In this document: piece by piece, positions 1-32,033 of the stretch
How the letters are laid out: every line of letters begins with the position of its first letter
Numbering within the stretch: the stretch's first letter is position 1
Assembly (NCBI GenBank): GCA_013388435.1
Contig: JACAFE010000038.1
Coordinates: 1 to 37,448, forward strand
From: Nitrospirota bacterium
GTDB lineage: Bacteria; Nitrospirota; Thermodesulfovibrionia; Thermodesulfovibrionales; SM23-35
Direction of reading: 5' to 3'
DNA length: 37,448 nt
Program-made: the position numbers and the translations under genes
Notes under the pieces: model-generated
Databases searched by the model: none
What the model was told of the DNA's origin: nothing
The model's input: the letters and a program-made list of their open reading frames with translations, nothing else

Positions 1-30
1 AGTTTATTTTGTTTCATAAATTGAGTTATT
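1..30. repeat. 30-bp direct repeat, copy 1
   Basis: These 30 bases, starting AGTTTATTTTG and ending TTGAGTTATT, recur exactly at 166-195. The copies are 165 bp apart start to start, and their flanks differ on the right. The left edge of this copy is the window edge, so the repeat could extend further left. No ORF crosses it. Its function is unknown; it may be the end of a dispersed or tandem repeat outside the window. Confidence 0.85.
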
Positions 31-2315: not shown

Positions 2316-4175
2316 TTAACGTATTGAGTTCAATGAATTTAGTCTTTGAATCACAATTGAATTTGAAGGGTTAATTTCTCTGGCTTTCAAATACATTGTT
2401 CTCGCATCCTGAAAATCCTGTTTGGCAAAAAAAGCATCTCCCATTGTTATATAAAAATTAGTTTTTTGAGGTACATTTTTAACTTTGTAAGCTGCCTCTG
2501 TTATTATTTCGTTCCACACCCATTTTTTCGGCATTTCATATTTTCTGATAATCTCGGAATTTTCAGGACTTTCTCTAACAAATATCAATGAATTATTATC
2601 CATATACACAAGTAACCATTCAGGATCATTCATTATAAATGGAATAATTGGAATCAGATTGCCTGTAAAATCATTAACAGAATAAGTTATTATAAAGTTA
2701 ATATTATAAACTTTCATAAACGCTTGCCATTCAGGAATATCTCCAAACTGCTGTAAATTTGCACTAAATATCTTGGAATTCTGGAAAAAAACTTCTTCTA
2801 TCAAACCTCTTCCATCCACAAAAACCTTATAATCAGGATATAATGCCCAAATCAGATATCCACCCCATACATATGGATTCAACATGTTACCATGAATCCT
2901 GTTATTTTTTAGAAATTCAGCAGAACCCTTAGGATATCTTTCCCACACAATGCCCTTGTTAATTATTCTGGTGTTTGCAAGAACTATAAACATAACAATC
3001 GATAACAAAGTTATCAATAAAGGCTGTAGAGATCCTAATTTAAATTTTTCAGAGAAACTCCTTAGTCTTTCAATATAATGTAATTTATTATTTAGAGCTC
3101 TCATAGTTTTTATTGCATAACGTACTGTAAATGGTGCATATATGGTTGCAAAAAAAGGTATTGTTCTTGCCGATGTAACACTCATATAAAGAAAAAATAA
3201 TAATATCACTAAATCTGTTATATCTATGCTTTTGAAATTTATAATCACAAAGAACATACAAAATATTATTAAAAAAATATATGTAATAATTTCCTGGTTA
3301 TAGAAACCCGCGGAAAGGAAAATAAAAGGTGATCTCGACTCAACAATTGATTCCATGTATTTACTTTTTTGAAACTCGATTAATACAGAAAATACATCCC
3401 ATTTATTTGGATTTAAAATTGTTATTAAAATAGAGAGAAAACAAACTACAATAAGTATCCTTAATTGTTTAGAAGGCAGACTGTTTCCGGTTTTACATTT
3501 GAAGAATTTAATACTCTCGCAGATAATATATATAGATAGAATTATAACGCCTATAAAAACTCCACCATGCATGTTTGCCCACAGAAGCATTATAAATGGA
3601 ATCGGCAATAGATATAATAAATTTGAATTTCGGTGTCCTGAGTTGATTTCCTTACATGAAGACCGAGAAATGTTCATTTCAGCCATTCTGAACCCTTCGA
3701 ATAAATAAACAAGAAGAAATACAAATAAGAAAGAAAATAGCTGTGGTCTTTCACCGGTGAAATTACTCAATATTATAACTGATGGAATAATCAAGATTAT
3801 GGAACTATAGAAATCAGCCCCTTCTCTTCTAATCGCCCTATAAACAAAATAAATGAGCACCGTGAGAATCGTTGCTCTAAAAAATATAATTCCCTGAAGC
3901 CCGGCCAACTTGTAAATTAAAAAAAATATTATCTGGGAAAGCCAGTACGATGTTAAAATGAATTTAATTCTTTTGGATTCAGGATTTAAAGGGTCCTTAG
4001 GTAAAGTAGTGTATGCAAAAGGATCTGTCTCGGGCAAAGAGCCATTAGTATAAATATATTCACCTGTTTTCAAATGCCACCAGAAATCAGGGTCCCATAT
4101 CCGTCCAGCGAACATCCCGAATATAAATATTAGAATAAGCGAAATAAATATAAATTTCGTAAATCTTAATATCAT
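2316..4175 (-). CDS. Polytopic membrane protein with DPDFWWHL motif and C-terminal TPR
   Basis: 619 aa. The first transmembrane segment is followed at residues 28-35 by DPDFWWHL and then a KTGEYIYTNG...DPFAYTTLP stretch. That resembles a family of large, mostly uncharacterised bacterial membrane proteins whose layout (acidic residues in the first external loop, about ten membrane spans) recalls GT-C glycosyltransferases. Many hydrophobic spans fill residues 10-420. A soluble segment follows (about 425-560), and a TPR-like pair of helices lies at 565-612 (FAKQDFQDARTMYLKAREIN). The start overlaps the upstream hydrogenase protease gene by 4 bases (ATGA), implying translational coupling. Together with the glycosyltransferase and acetyltransferase upstream it suggests envelope glycan work. 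Function is inferred, not shown. Confidence 0.8.
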   Translation of the reverse strand: MILRFTKFIFISLILIFIFGMFAGRIWDPDFWWHLKTGEYIYTNGSLPETDPFAYTTLPKDPLNPESKRIKFILTSYWLSQIIFFLIYKLAGLQGIIFFRATILTVLIYFVYRAIRREGADFYSSIILIIPSVIILSNFTGERPQLFSFLFVFLLVYLFEGFRMAEMNISRSSCKEINSGHRNSNLLYLLPIPFIMLLWANMHGGVFIGVIILSIYIICESIKFFKCKTGNSLPSKQLRILIVVCFLSILITILNPNKWDVFSVLIEFQKSKYMESIVESRSPFIFLSAGFYNQEIITYIFLIIFCMFFVIINFKSIDITDLVILLFFLYMSVTSARTIPFFATIYAPFTVRYAIKTMRALNNKLHYIERLRSFSEKFKLGSLQPLLITLLSIVMFIVLANTRIINKGIVWERYPKGSAEFLKNNRIHGNMLNPYVWGGYLIWALYPDYKVFVDGRGLIEEVFFQNSKIFSANLQQFGDIPEWQAFMKVYNINFIITYSVNDFTGNLIPIIPFIMNDPEWLLVYMDNNSLIFVRESPENSEIIRKYEMPKKWVWNEIITEAAYKVKNVPQKTNFYITMGDAFFAKQDFQDARTMYLKAREINPSNSIVIQRLNSLNSIR

Positions 4176-4639
4176 TTCGAGACTTCAATTTCTTTTAATA
4201 CCAATTCAATAATTCTCGGGATCTGCGCTTCAATTACCGGAGTTAATTCAATTCCGGGACTTATATCCTCTGGTTTAATCCCAATAAATACCACTTCCTT
4301 TGGTGCATTTCCAAACATCTCAGCATTTTTTAAAACATGTGTAAAATCAATATCATGAGCAGAAAATAGCTGACATGCATTACCTTCCAGAAGGTCTTTA
4401 CCGGTAAAATGGTAAATAGACCCTGGTTGATCATCTATTAACACAGCATCTATAACAATAACCTTAGTTCTATCTTCAATATAATAGACGAGCTTCATAC
4501 CAAGTGTACCACCATCAAGAACTTCAACATTCTCGGGCAATGACATATTCATTATCCTTTGAACAACATGCACACCTATTCCTTCATCTTTCAAGAGTAA
4601 ATTTCCAAGACCTAATATCAAAATAGGTTTCTTATCCAT
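4172..4639 (-). CDS. Hydrogenase maturation protease (HybD/HycI family), canonical copy
   Basis: 155 aa. This family removes the C-terminal peptide from the large subunit of [NiFe] hydrogenases after nickel insertion. The N-terminal motif GLGNLLLKDEGIG is present. The three nickel-sensing residues known from E. coli HybD (Glu16, Asp62, His93) have counterparts at Glu19, Asp42 (LDGGT) and His95 (SAHDIDF). The C-terminal GIKPEDISPGIELTP matches the family. It lies 63 bases after a divergent paralogue and overlaps the next gene by 4 bases. No hydrogenase subunit or Hyp gene is in the window, so its substrate is encoded elsewhere or the protein has another target. Confidence 0.92.
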   Translation of the reverse strand: MDKKPILILGLGNLLLKDEGIGVHVVQRIMNMSLPENVEVLDGGTLGMKLVYYIEDRTKVIVIDAVLIDDQPGSIYHFTGKDLLEGNACQLFSAHDIDFTHVLKNAEMFGNAPKEVVFIGIKPEDISPGIELTPVIEAQIPRIIELVLKEIEVSK

Positions 4640-4702
4640 TGAACCTTATCCTCTTCAATATAATCACTTTATGATTCAGTATTTACACCCGGAAAATAAT
4701 TA

Positions 4703-5179
4703 TTAAATATTAATTTCTTTCAAAACCATATCAATAATAACAGGTATTTTTGATTGAAGCACCGGAGACAACTCTATTTTAAGCTTTCCATCCTTATCTC
4801 CTGTATCATATGGTTCTATGCCTATTACGATCAGCTCTTCCGGAGCTGTTCCCATAATACATGTTGTATTATAATAATCCATAAATTCAGCTTCAGCTGG
4901 TGATTTCAATGCATTTTTTCTTTTTTCAATAAATTCATTTCCATTAAACCGGTATATCATTCCCGGTTCTCCTTCAGCTTTTATAGCATCTATAACTATA
5001 ACTTTTTTTCTATTTTCGATCATATACACTATATCAAAAGCTGCTATTCCACCTTCTATTATCTCAACATTAGGAGGCAATGACATAGTTTTTAGTCTTT
5101 CTACTACGTGAAGTCCCACCCCATCGTCTCTGAAAAGTAGATTACCGATTCCAAGAATCAGAACAGGTTTTTTATCCAT
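4703..5179 (-). CDS. Hydrogenase maturation protease paralogue lacking Ni-ligand residues
   Basis: 158 aa, clearly paralogous to the downstream gene (same MDKKP start, GIGNLLFRDDGVG motif, and GxxPEE...VIGIEP...ELSPV ending). The ligand positions differ. Glu16 of HybD is replaced by Asp19, a change also seen in active relatives. Asp62 becomes Glu42 (IEGGI). The SxH region holding His93 is replaced by a stretch with no histidine between about residues 83 and 110. It may have another specificity, cleave a non-hydrogenase substrate, or be inactive. The start is supported by GGAGG 11 bases upstream. It probably shares a transcript with the acetyltransferase upstream (69-base gap). Confidence 0.85.
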   Translation of the reverse strand: MDKKPVLILGIGNLLFRDDGVGLHVVERLKTMSLPPNVEIIEGGIAAFDIVYMIENRKKVIVIDAIKAEGEPGMIYRFNGNEFIEKRKNALKSPAEAEFMDYYNTTCIMGTAPEELIVIGIEPYDTGDKDGKLKIELSPVLQSKIPVIIDMVLKEINI

Positions 5180-29922: not shown

Positions 29923-29975
29923 GCTTTTTATTAAAATAAAAATTATTCTTTTCCTGAAAAATTAGCTTTTTCTTC

Positions 29976-29988
29976 CAGCAAACTGCTG
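29976..29988 (-). promoter_or_regulatory. SECIS-like hairpin after the second UGA
   Basis: On the minus strand CAGCA-GUU-UGCUG is a perfect 5-bp stem with a 3-base loop that begins with G. The loop starts 19 bases after the UGA at 30005-30003. Bacterial SECIS elements need a small stem-loop at about this distance with G early in the loop; E. coli fdhF has its loop about 18 bases after UGA. The hairpin lies beyond the predicted stop codon at 29996-29994, in the mRNA but not in the protein. Confidence 0.6.
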
Positions 29989-29993
29989 AGTAT

Positions 29994-30209
29994 TCAAACC
30001 ATTCAAGCTCCGCCAAACCCAATAATCACATTGCCTTTTTCAACTATTACAGGAACTTTTCTAATTCCACCAGAAAGCTTCAACATTTCTTCCATTTTTT
30101 TATCATCTGCTTTTACATCATAATACTCAACATTCTCTCCATAAGCATCAAGTGCTTTTTTTGTATATGGTCAACCTGGCTTTCCATAAATAATAATTTT
30201 CTCCAACAA
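29994..30209 (-). CDS. Glutaredoxin-like selenoprotein with two in-frame UGA codons
   Basis: 71 codons if UGA is read as Sec (U). The N-terminus reads EKIIIYGKPGUPYTKKAL, a glutaredoxin-type first strand and active site with Sec13 (UGA 30173-30171) where relatives have Cys. KVPVIVEKGNVIIGFGGA is the thioredoxin-fold cis-Pro strand. A second UGA (30005-30003) gives U69-Met-Val-stop. Both positions are chemically sensible, no other stop or frameshift occurs, and each UGA is followed by a hairpin. I recall a 'Uxx-star' glutaredoxin-like selenoprotein family that fits, but could not check it. Start is TTG at 30209 (AAAGGAG 7 bases upstream) or the adjacent TTG at 30206. It lies 4 bases after the NagA-like stop. 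Read conventionally it would be a pseudogene. If the second UGA is a real stop, the protein ends at residue 68. Confidence 0.85.
30139..30170 (-). promoter_or_regulatory. SECIS-like stem-loop after the first UGA
   Basis: On the minus strand, right after UGA, CCAUA pairs with UAUGG and AGCA pairs with UGCU around the loop CUUGA, with a 9-base bulge on the 5' side. The apical loop starts 18 bases after the UGA. A guanine is in the loop but in fourth place, whereas classical elements have it in the first two positions, so this one is less canonical than the downstream hairpin. Confidence 0.55.
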
Positions 30210-30213
30210 TTTT

Positions 30214-31074
30214 TTACTCCTTTCCTAAATATTTTTTCGGGTTTGATGTTATGCAATTCATTATTATTTCATTTTCATAACCTGAATCAATCAATCTTTT
30301 AGCAGACTCGGTAATTGTTATACCACCGCCAAGCAATTTACCGTAATTATTGTATATACCTTTATTCTCAGAAGAAGTTCCGGTTTCTTTTACTGAGTCA
30401 GAAATAATAATTATTCTTTCAGGATTTTTAACACTAAAAATCAAATCAATTGTTTTTTCATGCAGATGAAAAGGGTCTGCTATTATCTCAATATATACTT
30501 CCTTGTTTAATAAACCAAATCCGGCAAGACCCGGTTCCCTGTGGTGAAACCCTTTCATAGCATTGAATATATGAGTTACTCCCTTTGCACCATGATTATA
30601 CCCATTTTCAGCTTCATTATATGTTGCATCTGAATGTCCCATGCTTGCTATGATTCCAATGTCAGACATTTTTTTAATAAGTTCAGGAGCACCGTCAAGT
30701 TCAGGTGCAATCGTCATAATTTTGATAATATTTTCGTAACCATCAATTAATTCATAGAAATATTTTTCTCTGGGCTCAAGAAAAGTCATGGCATTTAGAG
30801 AGCCGCAATAGGAGGGATTCAGGAAAGGTCCCTCAAGATGTACTCCTGATATTTTTGCTCCTTCATCATTTGATTGATTCTGCATATCCATGGCTTTTCT
30901 TATATTTTCCATATTCTCACGCATTAATTTAATTGTTGCAGGATAAACTGTAAGAATAATTTCTGATACACCTCTTAAGCCTTGAAGACGTGTTATATTC
31001 AGGAGTTGTTTAAAATCTGTGGTTCTTGTGTCATACCCGCCAATTCCATGAGTATGAATATCTATTGTTTTCAT
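30214..31074 (-). CDS. Short NagA-like N-acetylglucosamine-6-phosphate deacetylase
   Basis: 286 aa amidohydrolase. Metal and catalytic residues are recognisable: His7/His9 (DIHTHG), Glu81 (HLEGPF), His147 (MGHSDA), His168 (THIFNAM, followed by REPG) and catalytic Asp226 (SDSV). Their spacing matches NagA. It is about 90 residues shorter than typical NagA (about 380). The N-terminal beta strands before the HxH motif and the C-terminal strands that complete the usual second beta-sandwich domain are missing; it ends at NPKKYLGKE. The ATG at 31074 is preferred, since longer frames run into the divergent rfbA. It is coupled to the selenoprotein gene. NagA versus a related deacetylase is not settled. 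Confidence 0.85.
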   Translation of the reverse strand: MKTIDIHTHGIGGYDTRTTDFKQLLNITRLQGLRGVSEIILTVYPATIKLMRENMENIRKAMDMQNQSNDEGAKISGVHLEGPFLNPSYCGSLNAMTFLEPREKYFYELIDGYENIIKIMTIAPELDGAPELIKKMSDIGIIASMGHSDATYNEAENGYNHGAKGVTHIFNAMKGFHHREPGLAGFGLLNKEVYIEIIADPFHLHEKTIDLIFSVKNPERIIIISDSVKETGTSSENKGIYNNYGKLLGGGITITESAKRLIDSGYENEIIMNCITSNPKKYLGKE

Positions 31075-31133
31075 TAAACTAATCTTATCACAAAAATTAA
31101 TACAATGTGAATAAAAGGGTATTTTAATATTTA

Positions 31134-31147
31134 TTACAGTACTGTAA
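31134..31147. promoter_or_regulatory. Palindromic operator candidate upstream of rfbA
   Basis: TTACAGTACTGTAA is a perfect 14-bp palindrome, 13 bases before the rfbA start, in the 86-base divergent region. It overlaps a possible -10 (TAAAAT, 31145-31150) that would make the rfbA transcript nearly leaderless. No ribosome site precedes the rfbA ATG. The palindrome could bind a small dimeric regulator of both divergent units. Confidence 0.4.
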
Positions 31148-31160
31148 AATAAAATATTAA

Positions 31161-32033
31161 ATGAAAGGAATAATTTTAGCAGGGGGAAGTGGAACAAGAT
31201 TGTACCCTATTACTTTAGGGGTATGCAAACAATTATTACCTATATACGATAAACCCATGATTTATTATCCCTTATCTGTTTTAATGCTTGCAGGGATAAG
31301 GGATATTATGATTATTTCAACACCTGTTGACCTGCCACGCTTTATTCAGATTTTTGGAACAGGAGAAAATCTCGGCCTTAAATTTTCTTACAAGGAACAG
31401 CCGCATCCCGGTGGAATTGCCCAGGCATTTATAATCGCAAAAGAATTTATAGGAGATGACAATGTTTGCCTTGTTCTTGGAGATAATATCTTTTACGGTC
31501 ATGGTTTTACAAATTTACTCAAAAAAGCATATTCTGACATTGAGACAATCGGAGGTGCAACAGTATTCGGGTATTATGTAAATGACCCTGAAAGATACGG
31601 GGTTGTAGAGTTCGATAAAAATGGCAGGGTTCTTTCTATTGAAGAAAAACCAAAAATCCCAAAATCAAAATATGCGGTTACAGGTCTTTATTTTTATGAT
31701 AACAATGTGATTGGTATTGCAGAAAGCATAAAACCTTCCCATAGAGGAGAACTTGAAATAACAGATGTAAATAAAGAATATCTTAAACAACAGAAATTAA
31801 GAGTGGAGCTTATGGGTAGAGGTTATGCATGGCTTGATACAGGCACACATGAAAGTCTTCTTGAAGCAGGAGAATTTATATCTACTATCGAAAAAAGGCA
31901 GGGGCTTAAGATTGCATGTGTTGAGGAAATAGCTTTTAAACTTGGGTATATCACAAAAGAGCAGCTTATCAAACTCGCCCAAAACCTCAATAAAAATGAA
32001 TACGGGAAATACTTAATGCGATTGATAAAATAA
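31161..32033 (+). CDS. rfbA: Glucose-1-phosphate thymidylyltransferase
   Basis: 290 aa. Makes dTDP-glucose from dTTP and glucose-1-phosphate, the first step to dTDP-rhamnose. The N-terminal nucleotide-binding loop [20 protein letters not shown] (6-25) and [18 protein letters not shown] are classic. Metal Asp sits in VLGDNIFYG, and the sugar-binding [16 protein letters not shown] is present. The length matches RfbA/RmlA. It is the first of the plus-strand sugar-nucleotide operon and is followed 4 bases later by rfbC. Confidence 0.97.

Follow-up and report, generated by a model that had tools for sequence, protein, structure and literature searches.

UXX-star selenoproteins of family 1 are modelled in NCBIfam as NF041114 and appear in a review as 'distant Grx-like protein 1', with a UxxT motif and two selenocysteine (Sec) residues; metal binding or unknown substrates have been suggested for the UXX-star family (PMC13188914). 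In the literature that we searched, no biochemical function for the family was found. It is among the few small proteins bearing two selenocysteines. For the hairpins that direct Sec insertion, the bSECIS model gives a loop of 3-9 nt, an upper stem of 4-16 bp, a G in the first two loop bases, a spacing of 16-37 nt and an MFE of at most -7.5 (PMC13188914). Glutaredoxin 3 and NrdH-redoxin (PF00462; PDB 3ic4, 3grx, 4fiw), which have a CPYC active site, are related in fold. The family has been catalogued before, its two Sec residues included (NF041114; PMC13188914), and the gene described here is a further member.

The gene lies on the minus strand of a 37,448-nucleotide stretch of DNA from a Nitrospirota bacterium, which was analysed as a whole and is referred to here as the window. 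A preliminary description, made by reading the raw sequence, had placed a glutaredoxin-like gene with local Sec recoding at 30209..29994, behind a good ribosome site and just past the end of a NagA-like gene. The location was correct: the gene (29994..30209) has a TTG start codon at 30209 and 71 codons, and a Shine-Dalgarno GGAG (30217..30220), recognised from the sequence, is situated 7 nt 5' of the TTG. The upstream neighbour on the same strand, the NagA-like gene (30214..31197), has its stop at 30214, leaving a 4-nt gap; its name comes from the preliminary description and inspection of the sequence. We consider with high confidence that the gene encodes a 71-residue glutaredoxin-fold UXX-star family 1 selenoprotein with two SECIS-directed Sec residues, at positions 13 and 69, and a UGA stop. 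The recoding proposed in the preliminary description was supported but incompletely described, as a second Sec lies two codons before the stop. Reading of the raw sequence can evidently reveal a genuine selenoprotein; easily overlooked are the second Sec and the hairpin for it in the 3' UTR.

Family membership and predicted fold

When the frame 30209..29994 was translated with Cys at the UGAs, it scored 107 bits against NF041114 ('UXX-star selenoprotein family 1'; cut-off 72). Read directly against the same model, the genome gave 94.1 bits and an E-value of 1.1e-26 with two TGA codons inside the match, and chance is excluded for a match of this quality with the UGAs read through. The protein resembles the family over its whole length, at both Sec positions and in its U-x-x-stop end, and differs from it in the TTG start and in a Met-Val tail where Gly-Val is usual. 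Matches over the cut-off were found in 61 of the 396 genomes of the phylum, and a phage search returned no match. The preliminary description had expected conventional gene callers to drop or truncate such a gene; it is indeed easily missed by them, but the NCBIfam model of the family (NF041114) brings it within reach of current annotation.

The broad Pfam glutaredoxin domain PF00462 was also matched (41.5 bits, cut-off 22.9), whereas the scores against the NCBIfam models for Grx3 (TIGR02181, 30.5 bits) and NrdH (TIGR02194, 27 bits) were below their cut-offs of 90 and 85.75 bits, respectively. An AlphaFold2 model, built from an alignment of the window protein and ten relatives, had a pLDDT of 88 and a glutaredoxin arrangement, selenium chemistry being outside the model; its best PDB neighbours, with a TM of about 0.7 on the query, were glutaredoxins and NrdH-redoxins. 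The predicted fold and the position of the active-site chalcogen residue are those of Glutaredoxin 3 and NrdH-redoxin, but the window protein has UPYT in place of CPYC and an extra C-terminal Sec. Cys-containing UXX-star homologues (e.g. L077 from Nitrospirae, L078 from Pelotomaculum, and L086) are 44-68% identical to it and have the same two redox positions, the first of which (codon 13) is occupied by Cys, as is codon 69 in L086.

Three in-frame UGA codons

The frame holds three in-frame UGAs, at 30173-30171 (codon 13), 30005-30003 (codon 69) and 29996-29994 (codon 72). We compared these codons in 66 members, taken from the 61 genomes of the phylum with matches and from named genomes; one mis-registered match (L084) was dropped, and the contig search in the named genomes read U as C and therefore returned mainly Cys forms. 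Codon 13, the putative active-site Sec (UPYT, CxxC-like), was UGA in 53 members, Cys in 12 and UAA in one. The UGA stands exactly where Cys is expected, as had been claimed, and 65 of the 66 homologues, which the preliminary description had proposed as a check, conserve Cys or Sec there. At codon 69, in the sequence Gly-Gly-Ala-Sec-Met-Val-stop (UGA-AUG-GUU-UGA), UGA was found in 65 members and Cys in one (L086), never UAA or UAG; the two codons that follow are mostly Gly-Val, and then comes a real stop. At codon 72, TGA, TAA and TAG were about equally frequent, and no conserved protein frame was found in the relatives beyond it. It is clear from this codon usage that codons 13 and 69 behave as Sec/Cys codons and codon 72 as a stop. 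This agrees with the 'U-x-x-star' in the name of the family.

G178, the one congener that was available (the genus comprises two genomes in total), shows the same usage, having at locus L034 UGA at codons 13 and 69 and TAA at codon 72. Comparison of the two genes gave a dN of 0.076, a dS of 0.666 and a dN/dS of about 0.11, i.e. purifying selection. We infer that the UGAs at codons 13 and 69 are very probably read as selenocysteine. The UGA at 30005-30003 lies inside the coordinates given in the preliminary description and had been overlooked, so the part of the protein after codon 13 is not simply the normal thioredoxin-fold remainder that was described. The UGA at 29996-29994 had been taken as the end of the gene, and it is the true stop.

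One member (L028, G352:C63) has TAA at codon 13 and keeps the UGA at the second Sec codon, which may be a sequencing error or a real change.

Hairpins downstream of codons 13 and 69

A hairpin, SECIS 1 (30139..30170, minus strand), directly follows codon 13. It was assigned from its fold and from the same geometry and a covarying upper stem in relatives. The upper stem is formed by AGCA (30156-30153) and UGCU (30147-30144) around the loop CUUGA (30152-30148), and the lower stem by CCAUA (30170-30166) and UAUGG (30143-30139). Members of the family have a 4-bp stem at +17..20/+26..29 after codon 13 with a 5-nt loop, and pairing of the upper stem was 92% among the members with UGA at codon 13 and 65% among those with Cys. 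Codons 12-24 are identical between the two congeners, whereas 27 of the 58 remaining codons differ (p 0.0009 for this particular block, 0.025 for any run that long). As the loop codons encode Leu-Asp, the loop reads CUUGA and the usual G in the first two bases, present in 43 of 52 UGA members, is absent; the congener shares this G-less loop. Loop, stem and spacing are within the limits of the bSECIS model, but the loop G and the energy are outside them. Folded as a single sequence (-5.1 kcal/mol), SECIS 1 was no better than shuffles of the 52-nt stretch.

The second hairpin, SECIS 2 (UCAGCA-GUU-UGCUGG; 29975..29989, minus strand), lies in the 3' UTR, with its apical loop 22 nt from the U of codon 69, and its loop, stem, G and spacing are all within the bSECIS limits. 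Because loop lengths differ, a MAFFT alignment of this region was unusable, and the hairpins were placed sequence by sequence. A hairpin of this type was present in all 66 members, the apical loop starting on average 22 nt (sd 3) from the U of the UGA, with a G among the first two loop bases in 65. The mean stem score was 17.1, compared with 9.0 for shuffles (sd of the mean 0.5) and 8.0 for a control further downstream, and the mean fold z over the region was -2.04, against about -0.2 in control stretches. Among the members, 31 different stem endings were counted on the 5' side, so that the structure is kept while the sequence varies. Similarly, the congener has AUUUAGC-GGCA-GCUAAAU, another sequence of the same shape. 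Taken by itself, the window hairpin was weakly better than shuffles, with an energy that depends on the stretch folded. As SECIS 2 sits 3' of the stop, protein coding cannot explain its conservation, and the covariation data provide a clean set of SECIS hairpins beyond the stop codon, outside protein-coding constraint.

These data bear on three other ways of reading the frame. If codon 13 alone were Sec and translation stopped at the UGA of codon 69, a single-Sec protein of 68 residues would result. UGA is the normal stop of other genes in the window, as the preliminary description had correctly pointed out for rfbC (32592) and the mannose-1-P guanylyltransferase (37317) and as we saw in six other ORFs, and inefficient Sec insertion would yield some 68-residue product in any case. 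Nevertheless, a plain stop would hardly be UGA in 65 of 66 members and Cys in the remaining one, nor be followed by Gly-Val (Met-Val in the window), a real stop and a conserved hairpin at SECIS distance, and we regard this reading as highly unlikely. It could also be argued from the three in-frame UGAs within so short a frame that the gene is a decaying pseudogene or contains sequencing errors, the UGAs being ordinary nonsense mutations. The same two UGAs, however, occur in the congener and in dozens of other genomes, and both codons are only ever UGA or Cys, bar the one UAA at codon 13; given these conserved UGAs and the purifying selection, the pseudogene was rejected as having a negligible probability. 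The same minimal probability applies to Sec at codon 72, with a protein running on to the UAA at 29945-29943. The frame does continue for a further 16 codons in the window, but the sequence downstream is not conserved as protein, and we rejected a third Sec because any of the three stops can occupy codon 72 in the family, TAA in the congener included. Two Sec residues followed by a UGA stop thus remains the preferred reading.

Selenocysteine machinery and the missing selD

The preliminary description had proposed a search of the genome for selA, selB, selC and selD. We found selA (631 bits), two full-length selB-like genes (380 and 364 bits) and a tRNA-Sec with the anticodon UCA (72 bits), which ends 32 nt short of a contig end. 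A genome lacking selB and selC, named in the preliminary description as a refutation, was therefore not what we found. In addition, a UGA lies inside the formate dehydrogenase gene fdhA (DHCARY-U-HS), and the hairpin after it, AGCC-GGUCU-GGCU, has the geometry of SECIS 1. In the congener, selA, tRNA-Sec and the UGA-containing FdhA with its hairpin are all present; the selB profile was searched in the window's genome only.

The outcome was different for selD, which was not found over the cut-off in either of the two genomes of the genus; three weak matches to the profile were ThiL-, HypE- and PurM-like by inspection. Of the 12 further genomes sampled from the family, 11 had a selD over the cut-off, and ten of these selD genes contain a TGA. 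The missing selD and the G-less SECIS 1 loop are this member's own features, and the former is a loose end for the Sec reading. The gene may be truly absent, may have diverged, or may have fallen into a gap independently in each of the two assemblies. The window's assembly consists of 88 contigs and is 98% complete. We consider a true absence of SelD less likely than an assembly gap or a selD that was not recognised. It is improbable that the genus maintains UGA-containing genes together with SelA, SelB and tRNA-Sec but has no SelD, in which case either the selenophosphate would have an unknown source or the UGAs would encode a residue other than Sec, e.g. Cys.

Decoding of the UGAs as Cys in this genus could be imagined either through SelA acting without selenophosphate or through the second SelB with a selC*-type tRNA-Cys, which adjoins it in the genome. 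The contrast between the two genomes of the genus and the rest of the family in selD would agree with this. The GCA anticodon of the selC*-type tRNA, however, does not pair with UGA, intact copies of SelA and of the canonical tRNA-Sec(UCA) are present, and selD could simply sit in an assembly gap. Moreover, codon 13 is TGC or TGT in 12 relatives and still UGA in both congeners. We therefore consider Cys decoding very unlikely and retain selenocysteine at both codons.

The selC*-type tRNA-Cys (L014, G000:C20:15540-15631) is tRNA-Sec-like and scored 57.7 bits against RF01852. Such tRNAs lie 48-67 nt upstream of a SelB N-terminal motif in five genomes of the family, namely this one, where the motif belongs to the second SelB, and four others (L014 with L070, L068, L074, L071, L073). 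selC* is known from Nitrospirae, and a partner SelB was mentioned only for Syntrophobacterales and Desulfobacterales (PMC7609411). We also noticed that two assemblies, G209 and G314, have a Sec-type selD with one internal TGA and no match to selA or tRNA-Sec.

Proposed function and gene neighbourhood

In the mechanism that we propose, SelB and Sec-tRNA-Sec would decode each UGA, guided by the hairpin directly downstream; for Sec69 this hairpin would act from the 3' UTR beyond the stop, and the UGA 9 nt after that of codon 69 would be read as an ordinary stop. Sec13, which belongs to the UPYT motif and is predicted at the beginning of the first helix, would be a highly reactive nucleophile and may attack a substrate such as a disulfide, a persulfide or a metal or metalloid. 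Sec69, two residues from the carboxyl end and probably mobile, may then resolve or co-ligate the Sec13-bound substrate. The C-terminal Sec of thioredoxin reductase plays a comparable role. In both proteins a Sec is situated near the carboxyl end of a redox protein, but thioredoxin reductase is an unrelated flavoenzyme and the comparison is an analogy only. The protein is most likely a selenol redoxin, acting as a reductant, or a metal or persulfide carrier.

The order of the NagA-like and the selenoprotein gene is common to the congener and one other genome of the family. Beyond these, no conserved gene neighbours were found, and none indicating a substrate; as the neighbours are not conserved, they give no clue to the function of the selenoprotein. 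Elsewhere in the window, at 4172-5179 on the minus strand, there are two adjacent paralogous genes that resemble hydrogenase maturation proteases by inspection.
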